64,000 nt of DNA. Origin: Zingiber officinale (Eukaryota > Streptophyta > Magnoliopsida > Zingiberales > Zingiberaceae). Shown here piece after piece: positions 22,150 through 55,000 of this stretch. Under the pieces are notes generated by a model. The model had not been told where the DNA came from and ran no database searches. It saw nothing but the letters and a program-made list of their open reading frames with translations. The DNA is taken from assembly GCF_018446385.1 (NCBI RefSeq), contig NC_056000.1:47896722-47960721 (forward strand). The letters run 5' to 3'. Numbering within the stretch: position 1 is the stretch's first letter; every line of letters starts with the position of its first letter. The position numbers were made by a program, and so were the translations under genes.

Positions 22150-25100
22150 AGAGCGACGGATGGACGGTCCTGATTCCATAAACAAACCCACAAATCAACA
22201 ACCAACGGACGAGATGAAACCTGGCTCCCGCCTTCCCCGTCGGCCAGCCACAAGGCTCCTCTCAGATTTCCCGGCGCCGACGAGCAGTTTCCTCTCAGAG
22301 AACACTCTGTTTGCGCCTTGTTCGATGGCTCAAAACTGTTTGAGCTTTGTTTTTCTTCTCTTCTTCTTGCTATGGATCATTCTCATCGAGATTTCACCGC
22401 ACATATCAAAGACAAGACGAAGATCGAAGATACGATCAGCCGCCAAACAAGTTCGCACTGAAATCTTAAAATTGTACAGTAGAATTCATAGCTAGATCAT
22501 GAGCAGCATGCATCTACTGATGCCTCTGTTCTTGGTGCCTTTGTTTGGCCTTTTAGGAGGTCAACGACTGATAACTCACGTAGAAAGTTTAAATAATTGG
22601 AATATTGATAAGGATACATCAACTAATCATGCAGGATCAGGAATTCAGGATGGTTTAGTTTAGATTGTGTTTTAACACTCACTTCCCTCATATTCTCTAG
22701 ATCGCCAATATAGAGGAATTTGTATGGCACTATTGTCTAGTTCAAACACCTCGACAAGTCAAAAGATGATTTTTGTGATATTTTCCTATGTATAAAACAA
22801 ACACACCAACTCATTGATTAGTTCTAACTCAAAGTATATGTTCACTAGAACACTCAAGTTGGACCCCATAATTTTACAACTCGTTTAGATTGAGTGTAAT
22901 TAATGGTACCGTTGTGACTCATGTTATTAGATTTATCTAACCTATATATCAGGTACGATAGAAACGTGTGACATGACCACATATGTTTAATAAAATAATT
23001 AAGTACTTCAAGGTCTTGTAAAGTGATGATCTTGATGTTGATGAAGCTCATGGCCCTTAACTTAGTTGGAGAGCAGGGAGAAAAGAAAGGGTATGTATCC
23101 CTTAATAGGTAACCTGGATTTTCGAGGGGATGAGTTTTAAAAATTTAAAACATTAGTGTAAGTAGATTTTCACACTACAAAGTTTAGATTTCAAATTTAA
23201 GGAGCTAAAAACGAATTTAAATTTAAAATTTTCAACCTTAGCCTTTGGTTCTAGTTGAAACAATGATCTATCGATTCCCAAATCTTATTTATGATTCAAA
23301 GTTAAAAAATTATTTATCTTTGTAAGGTTACAAACATAATCCCACATTGTAAAACACATGAGAAAGATCATGGGTTTATAGGAAAAAGATATCTCCATTG
23401 ACATGAGGTCTTTTGGGTAGAGCCCAAGAGCAAAATCATGAGGGTTTAGTCCAAAGTGGACAATATCATGAGATATTTTAGGTAGAGCCCAATATCATGC
23501 AAATGGACTTCTATTCCTATTTAAATAATCATCTTAAATAATAATCTAATAAATAAAATTTATATTTTACAATTTTCTTTCAAATAATGAAACATGAAAG
23601 AAAAAAGGAACAACTTATCTCTTTTATTTTTATTGTGGTTGGACAAAGGGAAAAATAATGCTTGTTGGAAAAAAATAGGAAGAAATCGTTACTTTTGAGA
23701 AAACAAAGAGAAGATAAGGAGGAAGAAACAAAAATAAAAAAGAGAGCTAGCTTTACTTTTTTCGTTAGCAACCTTAACTAGTTTTGATGAGCTCGACAAC
23801 GATACAAAGAGAGCAAGACAAAAATCCAAAATAAAGCTATTCTTATTATGCCAACAAAAGAAAATACGAGAAAAGGAAGAAAATGCGAAGGTTAAGGGTT
23901 GTTCTTGTTACTGGAAGAGGGTAGCAGATGATGCTACATTTGTTACTTGCTCAAGAAGAAAAAGAAAAAGAAAGGAAAGTTCTGGTAATTGAGAATAGGG
24001 GAGGAAAAAACTATAGGTTTATTATTATTGAAGAAGAGAAGAAGAAAAAAGAAATGTGAGAAAAGATGAAGAGAAAAATAAAAGAGAGGGCTAAGCAAAG
24101 TATGGCGAGATTCCATCATGCGTAGAGAGAAAAGGGAGGAAAAAAAAATGAAAGCGAATGTTTCTTCACAAACACTCTAATTTATTTTAAACCGATTAAA
24201 CTTATTAATCCTTAAATTTGATTTAGCTATAACTTAACCAAATCAACTCCAAATCAAGTTTGATTTAAACCAACATGATCTTTATCTCCACACCTACTCG
24301 TTGGATTTAGTTCGAATCTAATCTAATTTAAATTTAGTGTCTCACTTTTGTGTTTTACGATTTAGTTTATTATTCTATTTTTTATTTTTAAAATTTAATA
24401 GTTAACCATTCAAGTATACTTTCTTATAAAAATGATATCAAAATGGATAACTTGGGTCAAGACCTTTTCAAATATATAATCAATTTCATTTTTCCGATGA
24501 CAAAGGGAGTGGTCTCACCCCCTATCCCAATGTGGCTACGCCACTACTCTTAATTATAGTCCATCTACTTACAACTACTAATTAAGGGTAGATTCTTCAT
24601 TAAGGGTGGTCCCATAAATGGTGTGCACTAACATTGCTAGCTTTAAACCACACCAAGCAACTTCCTAGTTTTTACAATAATTATCGACTAAAATATTTAA
24701 ATTTTAGAGTAGTCCCCTCTATTACATCATATATAATATAGTGTGCTATATCACTTTTTCCTAAAGCAACATTAATTGTAATGATTAGAGTAACATGATA
24801 ATTAAAAAATTTATAATATTTTAGTGGTATTAAATTTTTTGAGTATTTAAAAATGAAGGTAAATTTCATGAAATTATATTTGATAGATTGTGATGGACTG
24901 CGATATTAAAATGGTTACATTATTTTGTACTAGCTAGTGATAAAAGAAAATTTGATTTAATTGGTCTAATTGACCTAGTTTATTTGACCGGTATGTATTG
25001 ACTTGACTATTCTAACCTATGTGCTTAGTCTAACCAAATTGGTTAGCGTGATGAGATATAGTCCACCTTGAATATATGACTCAATTAACTTTTCTAGTTT

Positions 25101-26380
25101 GTCTGACTTGACCAACTTACCCACCTAACTAGTTAAGTAGTTCAATTAAGCAATTTGACCTAACAAGCAAATAGAGTTCAATTGACCTATCTAACCCAAT
25201 CATTTGATGTATATAATTAGTCAGTCCACTCTACTCGACTCGACCGATACAATTTACACAATTAATCTACTTCTCATCATGACTCAATTGGCTTGCTCAA
25301 TCCATGAGCTTAACCAACTAAGATCTATCTAATTGCCTTAATTAATCTATCTAATTTGCTCATATTTCACAAAACTAACTCAATTAGTTTGATCAACTCA
25401 ACAACATTTATCTACATGTTAAAAAAATTGCCATTATTTATCACTGCATGGCTATTATAATCAATATCACAATCACATTATTGATAAGCTTTATTATTAA
25501 TTATTATTAATTAATAATTGAAAAAAAAAGATTATCACCTATCACACTCACATTTATTGACAAGCTGAACTAACACTACTAATTACTAACAGATTTAACA
25601 ATAATCACTGATCTTTCTCACAACAAATTAAATTAACCATGAATATTTCACCACTAAGGATAGTAACCCTAGTGCATGTTGTGCTGTGGGGCATGGAGAT
25701 GACCATGGTGCATGGGGTGAGAGTTCACCTCCATGCCATATCCATGGACACACACAGTATGAGCACTAATGTTCTTGAGTGAAAAAAAGACAGTCAATAG
25801 TGGCAGCAAAGGCCAAGCTCTGACCATGTACCAGTGACTGCCTCTGCCTCTGCTCTCATAGTAGAGACTTTGGACACACCCACACATACATCCACCATTT
25901 CTATAGATCTCATCTCCAAGATAACTCAGAGAGAACTAATGATGCATCCCTCACATGTGTGTGTTCTCATATTTGCCACCTCTCTCTTTCTCTTTGGTTG
26001 CTTTCATTTCTTTATTTATTTTATCCTCTCACTTTCTCTCTACAGTTCTCAGATGATCATGGCCTCTGCCTATATCTCCCGTGGGCTTCCACCTTTCCAC
26101 TCACAGACCTATCTCCTCTCTTTTACTTCTCCTGAAGCCACCAGGTTCAGCATCATGCTGCATGACTCCCTTCTTTGTGATCTTTGAAAAAGTAGGGCAG
26201 CATGCTGATTCTTTGATATGGCTTGAGGAAGTAGGAAGGAGGAATTAGGGTTTGGACTTGGCAACTGTTTCTTCAGCACATCCCAAGGGAAGTGAAGAAT
26301 CCTGCTAGGGTTCTCATTCTACTGTTTGAAGAACACTTTCTCTAGATTCTCTCTCTCTCTCTTTTTCTCTCCACAACAAA
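22150..26380. other. Intergenic region, AT-rich, no recognised gene
   Basis: Long AT-rich stretch with purine-rich tracts near 23580-24150 and a low-complexity zone near 24950-25420 where ttgacc- and aattgac-like words recur. No protein family or RNA gene was recognised. The last kilobase (about 25.8-26.4 kb) contains CT-rich runs and a tatatat motif and could belong to the promoter or first exon of the MIR319 transcript. Confidence 0.5.
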
Positions 26381-27010: not shown

Positions 27011-27215
27011 ATTGAAGAAAAGTGTTTGAAAGAGCTTCCTTCAGTCCACTCACCGGATGACTGTGGGTTTGAATCAGCTGCCGACTCATTCATTCAAACA
27101 CAATGGTAGACCTTGAGCTACTATGTGAACGAGTGAATGATGCGGGAGACTATTCTCTCCCAACCATTCCATGCTTGGACTGAAGGGAGCTCCTTCTTCC
27201 CTAGCTTTCAAATTC
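27011..27215 (+). ncRNA. MIR319: MIR319 precursor
   Basis: The mature arm starts at 27175 with TTGGACTGAAGGGAGCTCC and runs to about 27195, identical in these bases to plant miR319 (the form ending in CTT). The complementary star arm lies at 27031-27051 (agagcttccttcagtccac). The two arms pair and are separated by about 123 bases, the long loop known for miR319 hairpins, which also contains a second paired segment. Known role: miR319 cuts mRNAs of CIN-type TCP transcription factors and so controls leaf growth and timing. The primary transcript probably begins several hundred bases upstream and may be spliced; its start was not fixed from sequence alone. Confidence 0.95.
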
Positions 27216-46315: not shown

Positions 46316-49076
46316 CTATCTAGGCGACATAGTAGAGTGGCTACAAGTAGCCTTCGATGATCTATAGCTCGCCATGGCCGAGGAAGACGAAGGCAAATCG
46401 AAGAAGTATCTCCCCTTCATCGTTCTGTAAACACTGTGCAGACCTTCCTCTTGAAACTCCTGCACTGCCTGAGGCATCGGCGGCTCGTTGATGGACACTG
46501 AGCCTTCCAACATCCGCACCACCTCCCCCATGGAAGGCCTCACCACTGCCTCTTCTTGGATGCACCAAAACGCCACATGGAGAGCCCTCACCGCCTCCTC
46601 TTCCTCCACGTTCCTCTTCAGCCTCCTGTCGACGGCATTGCTCGCCGTTCCATTCACCATCTCCTGTAAAATTCAGCTCGATCCATGTTTCACTTCGAAC
46701 AGAGTCTGAAGCGAGCTTTTAGTGATCGCACCTTGAAAGCCCATGCAGGGTAGAAGAACTCCTTCTCGTCCAAGGAAGAATCGAGGTTCCTTCGTCCTCC
46801 GACAATCTCCAGCAGCAGCATCCCGTAGCTGTAGACGTCGACCTTGACGGTGACCGGGCGGTTGCTGACCCACTCCGGCGCCAAGTAACCCCTCGTGCCC
46901 CTCACCATGGTCACCACCTGCGAGTGCTGCCTGCTCATCAGCTTCGCCAGGCCAAAGTCCGAGACTTTGGGGCAGAAGTCCTCGTCCAGCAGAATGTTCT
47001 CCGGCTTGATGTCGCAGTGAATGATCCGGTTCCTGCACTGCTCGTGGAAGTAGGCGATCCCTTGAGCGATCGCCGTCGCTATGTTAAAGCGAGTTCGCCA
47101 GTCCAAAACCCTGTCTTCCCCTGAACGAAAGATCCACTTGTCCAGTGATCCTCTACTCATGTATTCATACACTAACAGCCTAATCAATGTGAACAAAAAG
47201 CATGAATGAACAAACAACACTTCTAGTTTTAGTTCTTAAGAGGAGTGATCAGTGCGGTGAAGGATCGGTCACCTGTGCGATTGCTCTGAGCAGAATCCAC
47301 AGAGGCTGACCAAGTTCATGTGGTGCATGGAGCCGATGGTGGTGACCTCTGCTATGAACTCCCTTTCTCCTTGAGGCAGCAGCCTGTCTAGTTTCTTGAC
47401 TGCCACCATCGTCCCGTCTCTCAGCGTTCCCTTGTACACGCTGCCAAATCCTCCTGGTCTCGCATCGAACAAGCACGATCGATTGAGAGAAGAATTGTGT
47501 TTTTGGCTTGATCGGGATTGATGATTAAGAAGGTAAGATACCTGTTCCGATCAATTGGGAGAAGTTTGAGGTAGCAATCTGCAGTTCATGGTAGCTAAAG
47601 CACGCCGGAGCTCCCGGCAGCGACACGCATCGCCGCATCGCCTTCTGCTTCCTCTTCCTTCGCGCGCAGTAGAAAAGCAGCGCGCTCAGGAGCGCAACTA
47701 GAGCGCCGAAGCAGATCAGCAACGGCAGCAGCACGCTGGCGCTCGGTGAGCCTGAACTCGATTCGCCCGTCGCCGACTCGTTTCCGGCGAGGACCTTCAC
47801 GTACAGTGTCGAGCTCGGGTCCTGCATCCCGCCGAAGTCCACCCAGCGCAGCGTCCAGCACCACGACTTCGCGTTCTCCGGCGAGGGCCCGTACACCGCC
47901 GCCACGCACTCGCAGTTGTCGGAGCAATGCCGGGAGCACTCCGTGCCGTTGACGTCGCCGCTGTAATTCGAGATCGTGGACTTGCCGGGGAAGTAGTAAT
48001 TGGTTTGCGGCATGGTTTGCATCTTGATTTGCCCGCCGTTTCTTCCGCTGCAGTTCACCGGCTTCAGCGGCGTGCAGCTGAAGGTGTTGTTGCTGGAGTC
48101 AAGGTTGCAGATGCCACTGCCACAAATTCCGGCGGCGGTGCATGGGTTCGACACGGCGGTCCACTCCACCGCCCAGTTCTTGTTCGCTTCCAAGCGGTAG
48201 AGCCGCAGATTCCCGTCGTTTCCCAGCGTGATCCTGCGCAGAAACGTGGACTGCGTGTCGTTCTTGTGGATATACATCGTGCCAGCGGAGGAAGCGCCGT
48301 AGCTAACGCCGAAGTTCCCGGAGGAGTCCAAGACGGCGACAACCTCGCCGGTGGCGTTTGATATCTGTGGGCTAGACCAGTAGGAATAGTTGGAGTTGGA
48401 CGTCGGCGAGACGTAGGCAAGGGCAAGGCTGAGGGAGGTTCTCTGCTGAAGCATTTGGAGGGCATAGTGCCCGGAGGAGGACGTGGCGGAGGTGAGCGCG
48501 AGGTCCACCGTCAGTTTTTGCCCTGGGAGGAGAGTATCAGAGGGGTAGGAGAAGCTATGCCACACGGCGGCGGCCGTCCGGCCCGTGACGTTGCCGCCGG
48601 CGCATAGTAGGAAGTCGCCGGAGTCCGACATTACGCCGAAGCTGGGATTCAACTGGGAAGTGTTGGAAGTCCACAGAACGGCGTTACCGTCTCTGAGCAC
48701 GAGTTCGCCGGAGTTTTCCAGTCGCACCACCGCGTCTCTTCGCGCCGGAAAACCTCTGCATCAATCGGAACGACAAGAAAGATGAAAAACTAAGAATCGG
48801 TGGCACAAGATCGAAACAAGAAATCCACCTATTCGGCGACCAAACAATGGTCGGATGATCCGGAAGGCCATAATACCAAATCGCCAACAGAAATTGATCG
48901 CGAACGCTTGCTGAATCCTGCGCGAACCCAAACGCGAAGATCTCATTCTCAGAAACCCACGATTCATTGCCGCCGGCGGAAAGCTCGGAGCCAACCGGTA
49001 TGCGATATTCCAAACAGCAAACTCCAGAAAGAAACAAGAAGAAGAGCAATGCAAGGGAAGAGAACAGAGACGCCAT
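46316..49076 (-). CDS. G-type lectin S-receptor-like serine/threonine kinase
   Basis: Five exons on the minus strand: 49076-48829, 48755-47542, 47453-47273, 47179-46732 and 46663-46316; 2439 bases, 812 residues, phases consistent. Order: signal peptide ([20 protein letters not shown]), bulb-type lectin domain (about 25-180, with [15 protein letters not shown] and [13 protein letters not shown]), an EGF-like cysteine stretch ([14 protein letters not shown]), a PAN-like segment ([17 protein letters not shown]), a transmembrane helix at about 424-447 followed by RRKRKQK, and a kinase with [33 protein letters not shown] and APEW. The catalytic arginine position is Cys (HCD), so this is a non-RD kinase, as is common in this subfamily. 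The end SHSTMSPR resembles Arabidopsis At5g24080. Likely plasma-membrane receptor; ligand unknown. An in-frame ATG 29 codons upstream was rejected because it would bury the signal peptide. Confidence 0.93.
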
Positions 49077-49163
49077 TGACCATGCAGCGAGAGCACAGAG
49101 TGATCCCGCTTTAAATTGGTTTGGGATTGCGATCTCCATTAGGTCACCAACCAAGTTCTTCAT

Positions 49164-50487
49164 TTTTCAATTGTGTTGAAATGGATGAACTGGTCGGCTG
49201 AGTGATCGCGAACGATGATCCATGTGTCGGAAACTGGGTAGGACAGGTAGAGATCTATTTAAGATTGGAGATAATTAAGTGATTAAATCGATAAGGTTGG
49301 AAATAAAGCCGATGATTGATCAGGTTACGAAGAACAATGCGTGGTGTGGCGAGTAATTAAGGGGCGAAGACTTTAAAACAGAGCAATAATTGAGGCTAAT
49401 CACAAGCTTTTGAGCTGACTCAAAAATATTTCATTCCTATTTTAAATTATCAAATTCAAATGGAACTAGGGCACTTAGTTAAATTTATGTGTATTTAAAT
49501 TTATTTGATAAGATATTATGTAGATGTTATAGAACTTTCAATTAAATTTTATTTAATTATTTATTAATTATTAAACTTGATAATTTAAATTTATTTTTTT
49601 AAAAAAATATTTATTTATTTAATATATTAATAAAAATTTTATTAATAAACATGATTTCAAATATTATTAATAATAATTATTTTTTATTAACATTAACGAA
49701 TTAAATATATATGTATTCAAATTAATATTTATTTTATTCATACAACTTAAAAGCCAGAACTGAATTTTATTTTTTTACACAATTTTAATTTACAAACGTT
49801 CAAATTAAGCCTTCATTCTTAGAATAGAATGAACAAGTTTGATTTCTAAAAAAACATCTATGCATTCGTTGATTTCTTTATTCTTTGATTTTCAACAAAG
49901 TAGTACACTTTTTGAAAAATTAAAGAATTCAATATTTAAATATCATGTTCAATGTACATGCTTTATATTCATATATTATTATGTTTTTTTGGTTAAATAG
50001 CACATTTATCTTTAATAGTCCAAACATATTTTCTTGGCCAGATGAGCATTGTTTAGTAGAAATTTTAGCTTTATATTTTCCGTATTATCTTATGCTTAGA
50101 ATAAAGAAAAAAAATTGCATTAAATGATTATTCTGAAAAAATTTATCAGTTTGACATTTTATCATTATAGTCAATACCACTGTAAGCACTAATTTTGTTT
50201 CTTAATACACAACTAATCTATAAAATAAAATTATAATTAAGATTTAGAAACTAAATAAGACGAATTATTAATAAAACGAAGTTTTTAGATATGAAAACTT
50301 TAATTTATAAAGTTTAATTGGTTTAATAAATTTAAAAAATTTCATTTTAAGAAGACTTAGTTTATGAAATCATAATTCAATTTACTAAATCGTTTTTTTT
50401 TTTTTTGCAATAAATTTCATGAAGATTCTAGTTATCATTGCAGTCTCATAAATCGTCTTAAATATACGAAAAACATTTCCGTCTTCC
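49164..50487. other. AT-rich intergenic region
   Basis: Mostly AT-rich spacer; nothing coding was recognised. The first 100-200 bases are the receptor-kinase promoter. A T run lies near 50393-50406. Confidence 0.5.
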
Positions 50488-51436
50488 TTATCGGGACTCC
50501 AATGAGAGAAATGGAGACCGCCATCGCTGAGCGAGGAGACGTGCAAATTTCGCACAGTTTTTGAACTCGGTAGGCATTTTAAAGCTTTGACAATGAGCCT
50601 TCAAGCCTTCGATTTGTGCTTCTGCTAAGAAAGGTGGCGTTTTGAAATAAAGATAGGCGGAAGGAATCCGAGAAATTGTAAGATTCACAAATTTTTCAGG
50701 AATCAGATTACAACGAAGATTGAAAACCGGAATTGAATTGAAATAAAGCATGCAAAGATTGAGAGATGGAGAAAGATCAAACCTTTTTGACTAAGGAAGA
50801 TGTGTGAAGACAAGAGGGACGATTTGTTTGTGCGGCGAGCTACTGGTGAAACACCTTCATGGAAAAAAAAAGAAGAAGAAGAAGAAGAAGACGCTAGCAG
50901 CGAACCTGTCATGGACTGATGTCGATCTCCTCTGAATCCGTTAAGCACCTTCAACAACCCTCATCTGCAATTAGTGTAGGTCTTCTTCCCTTGTAATACG
51001 GTTCTCCCTCATCTGCGATTCAGAAAACATATGCAAATCGTAGAATTCCAAATATATCCAAATGAATGCGATGTAATCACAATGTTCTCAATAAGGCATA
51101 TAAAATCCACGGAAAACCAAATAAAACGATGGCACATTACAAATCGGATACGAAAACCAGATTCAAAAAAACTAATCATAAAACAAACAGGGAAACCAGA
51201 GAGAAGGCTCAGCAAGAACGTAGTGATTAGTATTGCACAAATCATGCGCAGAGAGCGTCTTAACGAGTGTGAATTTCTTCATCATGGCCTCCTCCTACAC
51301 TGGGAAAACTGATCTGTGAGCAAAACATTACAACCAAAATCACAGAAAGGACCAGAAAAGGGAAAGGATGAGGAACGCCATCGCCGCTCCGCTTGGGAGC
51401 CGAAGGAGCTCGCCTCCCAATCTCAATATATTGTTC
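50488..51436 (-). ncRNA. Probable snoRNA host transcript (boundaries approximate)
   Basis: Downstream of a telo-box and Site II promoter the minus strand continues for about 950 bases with no recognised protein. Small open frames exist (for example 50751-50488, 87 codons, start MLYFNSIPVFNLRC) but resemble nothing known. Two acceptor-like ttgcag/atgaggg words occur near 51018 and 50968, so the transcript may be spliced. Because it carries a candidate box C/D snoRNA near its 5' end and the promoter type used by plant snoRNA genes, I take it as a non-coding host transcript. The 3' end is a guess. Confidence 0.4.
51203..51292 (-). ncRNA. Candidate box C/D snoRNA guiding 5.8S rRNA methylation
   Basis: On the minus strand a perfect C box ATGATGA lies at 51285-51279 and a D box CTGA at 51212-51209. 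The flanks GGAGGC (51292-51287) and GCCTTC (51208-51203) form a 6-pair terminal stem. Total length is about 90 bases, normal for the class. Directly upstream of the D box, ctacgttctt is complementary to 10 consecutive bases of plant 5.8S rRNA (aagaacgtag in the gatgaagaacgtagcg segment). The fifth base before the D box pairs with the A after gaag, which by my count is A47, a 2'-O-methylated position I recall as reported for plant 5.8S. The inner C'/D' boxes are weak. Function: guides fibrillarin-dependent ribose methylation in the nucleolus. Confidence 0.78.
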
Positions 51437-51479
51437 AAACCCTAGCTCATCGATCTCGCTAATGGGCTTTAAATGGGCT
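51437..51479 (-). promoter_or_regulatory. Telo-box and paired Site II promoter motifs of the snoRNA unit
   Basis: A perfect telo-box (aaacccta) is at 51437-51444, and two Site II words (tgggct) are at 51463-51468 and 51474-51479. This combination is known from promoters of plant ribosomal-protein and snoRNA genes. It lies about 150 bases upstream of the candidate snoRNA, in the orientation expected for minus-strand transcription. Confidence 0.65.
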
Positions 51480-51638
51480 CAAACTCAGAATTAGTCTTTG
51501 AAGGTTTTTTATGGGAAATTTTACATGTCTATCATAATTATTTATGAATAAATTAAAAAATAGATTTAAAAATAGAGAAAATGGGAGAAAAGTTTCTAAA
51601 TACACTTTCAATTTTCCATACAGTCATATCCCCCCCCC

Positions 51639-51672
<34 letters not shown>

Positions 51673-52061
51673 TTTATTTCCATTTCATACCTATAAAAAT
51701 TTATTTACTTCAACTCTCTTATACAAATATCATTACATAATTATCTCTCATATTCTTATAAAAATTTCAAAAAATAAATATAATTACTCTTAAATTTAAC
51801 ACTTTAAAATAGAATCAAGTATATTTTCTATCAAATTGAGCATAATTTTTTTCCGCTTAATATAATTTTCTTAAATTCAGCACCATTAAAAGAAAAAATC
51901 TAGTATATTTTTCATCTGAGCATTATTTAAAAAAAAATCTATTATATTTTTTATCCAATTAAGGTGGAAAAAGAGTCATGATCAATTTGATACAAAATAT
52001 AATAGATTTTAGTTTAATGTGGTGAATTTAAGAGGAAATATACTCATTTTTGGATCTTTTA
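51480..52061. other. AT-rich spacer with homopolymer tracts
   Basis: Contains a run of about 11 C (near 51629-51639) and a run of about 27 A (near 51644-51670). No gene was seen. The right part borders the old LTR element and could include its degraded left end. Confidence 0.45.
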
Positions 52062-55000
52062 TATTTGGTCATCTGTGGGAACGCAGCCTGTATCTAAGAC
52101 ATGAAGATAGAAGACACTAGACAACTCATGACGGTGACACTACAAAGGAGGAATTAGATATATTGATATAAGTCCGAGCGGCAAAAATGATAGAGCAACA
52201 ATAACAACAGGCATTGGCCGAGCGTCAGATACATGAGCCCACGGCATCAGCAGCAGGGCAGTAGGTCGTATATAGAGACCGAGCGAAATATATATCCGTT
52301 CGGGGGCAGAATAAGAAGTTGACCGGCACATACGAGGACCTGCTCAATGCGTTGATCCTCCTTTCATTGTGCGTTATTCCACACTCCTTCAAAGGAACAG
52401 GGCCGAGCGGATAGAGAACCAAGATCATCCTCGGGTCGCGCCCCTATCCGTGATGGACAAAAGGAAAAGGTACCCTGGGTCGATGATTCGCCCGAACGGA
52501 TCAACGAGCAATTCTCTCAAGGGATTTTGACGATACGTTGCAGCGACACTATACCCCATTGACAATCGAGGAATACAATGGGATGATTGATCCAAGGATC
52601 ATCTGACTAGATTCGACAACACAGCCGCACTCCATCAGTACACCGATGAAGTGAAATGTCGAGTCTTTCTCACCATCCTCTCCGGATCAGCGCAATGATG
52701 GTTTAGACGATTGTCGATAGAATCAATTTACAACTTAAAAGACTTCCGAGCGACATTCTTGCACCACTTCGCTAGCAGTTGTCGCTACTAGAAGACAAGT
52801 GTTAATCTGTTCGCTGTGAAAAAGGGGCCCAAGGAGACATTAAGAGCGTACATCAAGTGGTTCAACCAGGTGACCATAGATATTCCATTGATATTCTTGG
52901 AGATATCGGTAAATGCCTTCTCTCAAGGGCTTACCGAAGGGGAATTCTTCCGCTCACTCATATAGAGGTCGCCAAAAGACTCCGACCACTTGCTCAAGCG
53001 TGCCATCGAATACATAAACGTGGACGAAGCCCAAACGACGTGAAGGAAGGAAGTGACTGCTGAGTATACTACTTCCCCTAAACGGCGACCGACCATCAAT
53101 TATCAACTACCAAAAGGTCCCCGATCGAGAGTAGCACAACTGCACGATGAGCAAAGAACATATGTCGTGCAACATGTAGCAGCAGGTCGACCCAAAGCTG
53201 CAAAAGGCAAGACTTCAACGTCGTTGTTTTGCTCGTTCCATCAATCGGCGACACACAACATATTAGTGCAGATTGAACTAATAATCTAGTTTTAATTTAT
53301 GACAAATAAGTTAAAGTTAGATGTGATGTTTGTCTAACTTTTCTATCATGTGTGCAGGAGTTGACTAGTCTAAAGGACTTAACACTAGGCTAAAATCCAG
53401 CTAGGTCTGAGGGACCTGATAGCTGGTGGGAAGTTCATATAGGTCTGCGAGGCCCGATATCTGGTGGGAAGTGCAGTTGGGTTTGCAAGACCTGACAATC
53501 AGTCGAAGTCCAGTTGGGTTTGCAGACCTGACAATTGGCGGAAAGACTTAGTGGGTCAAAGGAAAGTCAAGTGACTACAGTTGGTAAGTGGAAGTAAGCA
53601 ACTGGATGAAAGATCCAATGAGTACGCATTCCCCTTTGAGGGAATTGTAGATGTCGGTCTAACTTAGGTTCATTTGTAAAATCTAAGTTGAGACCTTGAT
53701 TAGATCCTCATCTTGAGAGGACAGGATCTAATTACTATTGTTGTTTTATTATGTTGTGTTAACTTTATTTCGTGGGCATTCGGGTGGTCCGGGAGCCCAG
53801 AGTCGGTCTAAGCACCCGGACCAAAAATCTCATCCAAAAGCTGATGTGCAGCGCGTCGATTGATCGAACCACGTTGTCTACGCACCCAGAATGAGCCTAT
53901 ATAAAGGCCTTCGACCAAGATCTTCAGTACACCAACTACTATGACTTTCACTCTTGTCCGGTGCTCCGAAAAAACTCCAATGACGTTATGAAGCTCCTCC
54001 GACAGCCGACATTCAAGACATTCTTATTTTCTTTATTGTCGATAATACTACTTTTAGTTCTTGTACTTAACTTGTGTAATTGTTCGAGCTATTAGTGGAT
54101 TGCCCAATGAAAACATTTGAAAAGTGCGGGCATTGGAGTAGAATGCATCGAAGGCTCCGAACCAAGTAAAAATTGGTTTGTTAGTATTGTTTTCTTTTCT
54201 TCCCTACGTACTTCGATTTAACTCGCTCTCTAATTTCGACTATCTCTATTCATCCCCCCTCTAGCGTCTTTCCAATCCTACACAACACTCGAGATTGCTA
54301 CGATTTGAGAATGATTTCTAACTGATCGACTCCTCCAGGATATCGACGTCACTCACCAACTCCCGATCGACGACATCAACATCGGTCAGACGGGCATAGA
54401 GAAGAAGAGACAGTGGCGGACGAGTAGCTCCATCGCAGGCCTCAGTGAAGGGGAAATGCAAGTCCCGCCCGAGGTTTGGCTAAACGGACTACATCCTCAA
54501 CTCAGGAGGAAGAAAACCGAAGCAACACCGCTCGGGGCAAAATCAGAATGATCGTCGGGGAGCAGATTGGCAGTGATTCGAATCGAGAAAGGAAGTTGCA
54601 CGCTTGTCAATTAGAGATACATGTTGTGGAATGCAGCAATGAGAAGACCGAAGGATCAGAGATCAATTTTGACCCTCGGGACCTAGAGGGAGTGAAAATA
54701 CCTCGCAACGACGCCTTGATCATCCGGACAGTAATATCTAACTATACTATTCACCGAACTTTTGTTGATACAGGTAGCTTAATGAATATAATCTTTAAGA
54801 AGGCGTTCGACTAGCTGCAAATCGATCGAAGCGAACTGCAACCCATGATGACCCCGCTTTATGGGTTTATAGGAAAATGAAATATTATGGATCGGCCAGG
54901 ATTGGTTGGTCGTATCACTCACAAATTTCATTGTGGTGGCGCGCCGTCCACCTACAATGTCATATTAGATCAACCAGTGTCGAATGAATTTCGAGCTGTG

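Follow-up and report, generated by a model that had tools for sequence, protein, structure and literature searches.

Does a stretch of about ninety bases on the minus strand of a Zingiber officinale chromosome, lying among small open reading frames, specify a small nucleolar RNA, and if so, which nucleotide would this RNA act upon? The window analysed here is the whole stretch of 64,000 nt (GCF_018446385.1, NC_056000.1, forward strand, 47,896,722-47,960,721), and all coordinates are given relative to it, those of the locus itself in Table 1. Judged by its sequence, the element is very probably a diverged member of the plant box C/D snoRNAs that guide modification of 5.8S rRNA at A47. Box anatomy, terminal stem and spacing all point this way, as do a guide register that falls on a known Nm site, the best-matching Rfam family and the promoter motifs; boxes, stem, register, motifs and family likeness are direct observations. 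The window snoRNA would seem to be an unremarkable representative of a familiar class, one that slips under the standard RNA-family cut-off.

Table 1. Features at the candidate snoRNA locus, in window coordinates.
Feature	Position	Strand	Remarks
Candidate box C/D snoRNA	51203-51292	-	about 90 nt predicted mature span
Terminal stem, 5' arm	51287-51295	-	9 pairs, 2 of them G-U
C box ATGATGA	51279-51285	-	RUGAUGA type, near 5' end; sequence scan
Possible accessory pairing element AATTCACACT	51266-51275	-	9 Watson-Crick and 1 G-U pairs to 5.8S 69-78
D'-like box CTGC, degenerate	51248-51251	-	putative, read by eye
C'-like box ATGATTT, degenerate	51239-51245	-	putative, read by eye
D guide CTACGTTCTT	51214-51223	-	10 uninterrupted Watson-Crick pairs to plant 5.8S 44-53
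D box CTGA	51209-51212	-	near 3' end; sequence scan
Terminal stem, 3' arm	51200-51208	-	closes C and D boxes
Telo-box AAACCCTA	51437-51444	+	about 150 bases upstream of C box
Site II element TGGGCT	51463-51468	+	motif scan
Site II element TGGGCT	51474-51479	+	motif scan

The earlier note on this DNA had described a perfect C box, a D box and a terminal stem of six pairs in correct spacing. Boxes and spacing are as described, the distance from C to D box being 66 nt and thus in the usual range for box C/D snoRNAs, but the stem is three pairs longer and is separated from the C box by a single unpaired C at 51286. Eight of its nine pairs are contained in the minimum free energy fold, and the folding energy of the candidate is ordinary (z -0.17). 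For the guide preceding the D'-like box no clear target was apparent in 5.8S rRNA or in the partial rRNAs of contig L001, the sequences to which this comparison was limited. That contig, the only one found by an 18S pattern, belongs to a metagenome-assembled genome labelled as a cyanobacterium (Coleofasciculus) and carries eukaryotic 18S, 5.8S and 28S rRNA at 1-2500 on its minus strand, that is foreign DNA in the bin. Since its 5.8S target region GAAGAACACAGC differs from that of plants, the contig probably does not stem from a land plant and serves as a weak comparison only. Plant 5.8S rRNA gave no match in either the genome-contig set or the viral-contig set.

The pairing and the numbering of A47 are based on an assumed plant 5.8S sequence. 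Realignment bore out the proposal that the D+5 rule points to A47: in this sequence the ten uninterrupted Watson-Crick pairs comprise D+2 to D+11 and place D+5 opposite this adenosine. Complementarity of ten bases to 5.8S rRNA, as had been noted, is thus present, but it does not begin immediately before the D box, since D+1 is a G that faces G43 unpaired; at the other end D+12, an A, is mismatched with C54. A control primer for 5.8S rRNA, published for three species of Apiaceae, confirms the target stretch GAAGAACGTAGC (PMC6539805). The statement of the earlier note that plant 5.8S rRNA is methylated at two positions, A47 being one of them, is found in print: RiboMeth-seq of Arabidopsis lists two 5.8S Nm sites, A47 and G79, and assigns A47 to the C/D guide SnoR9 (PMC8053127), the same two sites are given in a review (PMC8351944), and Table 2 of another review enters Am47 for Arabidopsis, Am48 for tomato, Am46 for tobacco and, as a prediction, Am42 for the alga O. 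tauri (PMC11542601). Methylation of A47 is therefore known from other plants and is predicted here for Zingiber officinale. With ten pairs the window guide falls inside the range of 10-14 pairs that comprises most Arabidopsis guide duplexes (PMC8053127, section 13).

A scan of the whole window against Rfam at gathering scores did not report the candidate. It returned only a MIR159-family hairpin, with one row per strand, which lies at 27020-27206 on the plus strand and scores 130.6 bits, its antisense strand likewise exceeding the gathering score with 93.6 bits. The 3' arm of this hairpin carries TTGGACTGAAGGGAGCTCC at 27175, which we take to be of the miR319 rather than the miR159 type. For the candidate, the proposed Rfam check gave a divided answer: the best match is indeed a C/D family, RF00356 (box C/D snoR32/R81/Z41), aligned end to end over 51202-51293, but its 29.8 bits miss the gathering score of 45. 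Over 701 bases this match has an E-value of 0.053, over a stretch of 100 bases one of 0.0075; scaled arithmetically from 701 bases to 64 kb it becomes about 5, and the match alone does not stand out in a search of the whole window. Among five matches in an E-value scan of 50900-51600, three were C/D families on the candidate; the others, MIR162_2 (E 5.4) and GHRLOS (E 1.8), lie just upstream and were taken as chance. When 100 bases were scanned, all ten matches were to C/D-box families on the minus strand, and eight of them took in both boxes, ending at 51202-51207 on one side and at 51289-51293 on the other, sR42 and sR3 covering the C-box side only. All ten stayed below gathering, and E was below 0.05 for RF00356 only, the remaining nine (0.099 to 8.2) being singly at chance level. 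One of these nine, the match to snoU30 (12.9 bits, E 5), which shares CUCGUUAA with the window RNA, was set aside as chance, because by eye only about six pairs fit its site in an assumed 18S rRNA sequence.

The RF00356 consensus itself forms 14 pairs (one G-U) with 5.8S rRNA that place D+5 on A47; in its second-best register it forms six. The nearest family thus has an A47 guide of its own, and the window RNA appears to have kept the guide while its body drifted. Both share the same ends, C and D boxes, a terminal stem and the guide CUACGUUCUU on 5.8S A47. On the other hand, the internal region and the letters of the stem have diverged, seven model positions are absent from the match and the score lies under gathering; D+12 is G in RF00356 but A in the window RNA, which therefore forms 10 pairs rather than 14.

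Among named counterparts, Arabidopsis SnoR9 has the same predicted target nucleotide, 5.8S A47, and is likened to the window RNA by target only (PMC8053127, Table 1). SnoR32 is given 18S A1330 as its target in the same work (PMC8053127). With an assumed 18S sequence, no guide for A1330 was seen in the RF00356 consensus, so that the label used by Rfam and the SnoR32 label of that work seem to be mismatched; a literature search for snoR32 and R81 together gave nothing. The name snoR32_R81 appears among the snoRNAs reported to shift in abundance in heat-stressed tomato pollen (PMC4575465), and snoR32 is also the name of one of the seven families of box C/D snoRNAs listed as conserved throughout land plants (PMC5122169). 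Outside plants, Neurospora CD29 is likewise a C/D snoRNA that guides the corresponding 5.8S adenosine (Am42), with a guide of 14 pairs, and this 5.8S methylation was mapped by primer extension (PMC2780460). The homologue table of that work enters snoR9 in the A. thaliana column for CD29 (PMC2780460). CD29 differs in that its D' guide serves 5.8S rRNA and its D guide U2 snRNA, whereas in the window RNA it is the D guide that is directed at 5.8S rRNA (PMC2780460).

TeloSII promoters are a mark of plant genes for snoRNAs and for ribosomal proteins (PMC4660826). The telo-box and two Site II elements that had been noted upstream are present, about 150-195 bases from the snoRNA and so within 1 kb, and a TATA-like ATATAT begins at 51431 on the minus strand. 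As evidence this signature weighs less than it seems to, and it is not rare here, since Site II elements occur within 500 bases at six of the ten telo-box places of the window, a telo-box with two Site II elements within 50 bases arose in 121 of 6,000 simulated windows, and the window contains a second compact instance at 23421-23491. The latter may drive a gene for a snoRNA or a ribosomal protein. Promoter motifs of this kind are weak proof and poor predictors when taken alone, for when promoter features were used to predict snoRNA genes in Arabidopsis, 24 of the 26 genes so obtained were unexpressed in one data set, and the remaining two are described as having low expression and other structures (PMC8053127). 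Further upstream of the promoter lies an inverted repeat (51761-52060) with 92-nt arms of 79% complementarity, perhaps a MITE-like element.

The statement that the snoRNA is in none of the protein reading frames did not hold, as two mechanical open reading frames, 51009-51245 (minus) and 51031-51312 (plus), overlap it. Pfam searches, which covered 8 of the 21 reading frames listed for 48000-55000, gave no match for the four small ones between 50488 and 51312, two overlapping the snoRNA and two just downstream. A coding reading of the locus was rejected, as these overlapping and adjoining small frames are without a Pfam family. At some distance, a reading frame at 47525-48730 (minus) contains B-lectin and S-locus glycoprotein domains, an arrangement that suggests a G-type lectin receptor-like kinase, though without a kinase domain in the part tested.

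A relaxed C/D-box scan of 50000-52500 on both strands gave the candidate alone; H/ACA RNAs were covered by the Rfam scans only. With no second C/D RNA in these 2.5 kb, the candidate is probably a single-snoRNA gene, which is the simplest reading of the sequence; alternatively, it may lie within an intron of an unrecognised non-coding host. Within the window, blastn found no second match to the candidate beyond short ones at chance level (E at least 0.57).

A further contact with 5.8S rRNA is conceivable through the accessory element near the C box, but the pairing is only weakly better than chance, so that we treat it as a possible contact and a hypothesis only. Among 2,000 exact dinucleotide shuffles of the snoRNA body, which included the last A of the C box, 83 gave at least nine Watson-Crick pairs, 93 gave ten pairs with at most one G-U, and 49 gave nine Watson-Crick pairs within 5.8S 1-97. 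The nine-base word of the element is found twice on the minus strand of the window. The RF00356 consensus does not contain the element and offers at 69-78 only a different, G-U-rich run of ten pairs. In Arabidopsis, extra pairs of 7-15 bases are described for 45 of 104 Nm sites, more than half of them directly beside the main duplex (PMC8053127, section 13); the contact considered here sits 15 bases from the main duplex and adjoins G79. It is rather unlikely that the snoRNA, with its diverged body and as the sole snoRNA of a gene of its own, grips 5.8S rRNA at two points, 44-53 and 69-78 beside the methylated G79. If it were true, the snoRNA would help to fold this part of 5.8S rRNA or to order its modification, besides methylating A47.

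It is quite unlikely that the locus is a silent or decaying paralogue, a pseudogene of an A47 guide whose intact copy does the work elsewhere. The A-C mismatch at D+12, which shortens the guide to ten pairs, and the divergence of the body from the RF00356 consensus would agree with decay, and in Arabidopsis SnoR9 is marked 'multiple gene variants' and several annotated snoRNAs are unexpressed (PMC8053127); yet C box, D box, all nine pairs of the stem and the positions D+2 to D+11 are intact, and the locus has a compact telo-box/Site II promoter.

How often such motifs meet by accident was estimated in the window and in 6,000 windows simulated by a first-order Markov model, in which a set comprised a C box, a D box and a stem of at least four pairs. 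RTGATGA occurs 30 times in the window, as compared with 25.5 expected, so that the C box alone carries no meaning. Two pairs of C and D boxes with a stem of at least four pairs exist in the window, the candidate with its 10-pair 5.8S guide and another with at best four pairs; the latter, at 25048-25106 (plus), has an 8-pair stem and lacks a 5.8S guide. The simulated windows contained 6,470 sets, about one per window, of which 67 had a stem of at least nine pairs. Only two sets carried a guide of at least seven pairs to A47 or G79 (seven and nine pairs, each with a 4-pair stem), and none carried one of at least ten. Guides of at least nine pairs to any 5.8S position were found in nine sets, with stems of four or five pairs. 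Without the demand for C box and stem, the 6,000 windows yielded 31 D boxes with a guide of at least ten pairs to A47 or G79. A separate run of 600 windows gave 651 sets, one of them with a 10-pair guide to 5.8S rRNA, counted over all 5.8S positions and stem lengths. By these counts the combination of C box, D box, stem and A47 guide is very unlikely to arise by chance. A random assembly of motifs without an RNA product is thus highly improbable: C boxes and whole sets do arise randomly and the Rfam score is below gathering, but no simulated set had a guide of at least ten pairs to A47 or G79, the known Nm sites of 5.8S rRNA, and RF00356, a C/D family that carries the same guide, matches best in Rfam and does so over its full length.

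If the locus is a functional A47 guide gene, the telo-box/Site II promoter would drive transcription of a precursor by RNA polymerase II, and the box C/D snoRNA of about 90 nt would be trimmed from it. Closed by the terminal stem, C and D box would together fold into a kink-turn that serves as the assembly platform for fibrillarin and the standard C/D proteins. The D-adjacent guide would then pair with 5.8S 44-53, and fibrillarin would methylate A47, the nucleotide opposite D+5, at its 2'-OH. For Zingiber officinale we infer these steps, from transcription and trimming to assembly and methylation, by analogy with established knowledge of C/D snoRNPs.

The window snoRNA alone opens no new biology. 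It is likely a real snoRNA that scores below the Rfam cut-off and would be lost to routine Rfam annotation, yet its boxes, its stem and the register of its guide make it recognisable. Were it expressed, Zingiber officinale would have in it a guide for a conserved plant 5.8S methylation.
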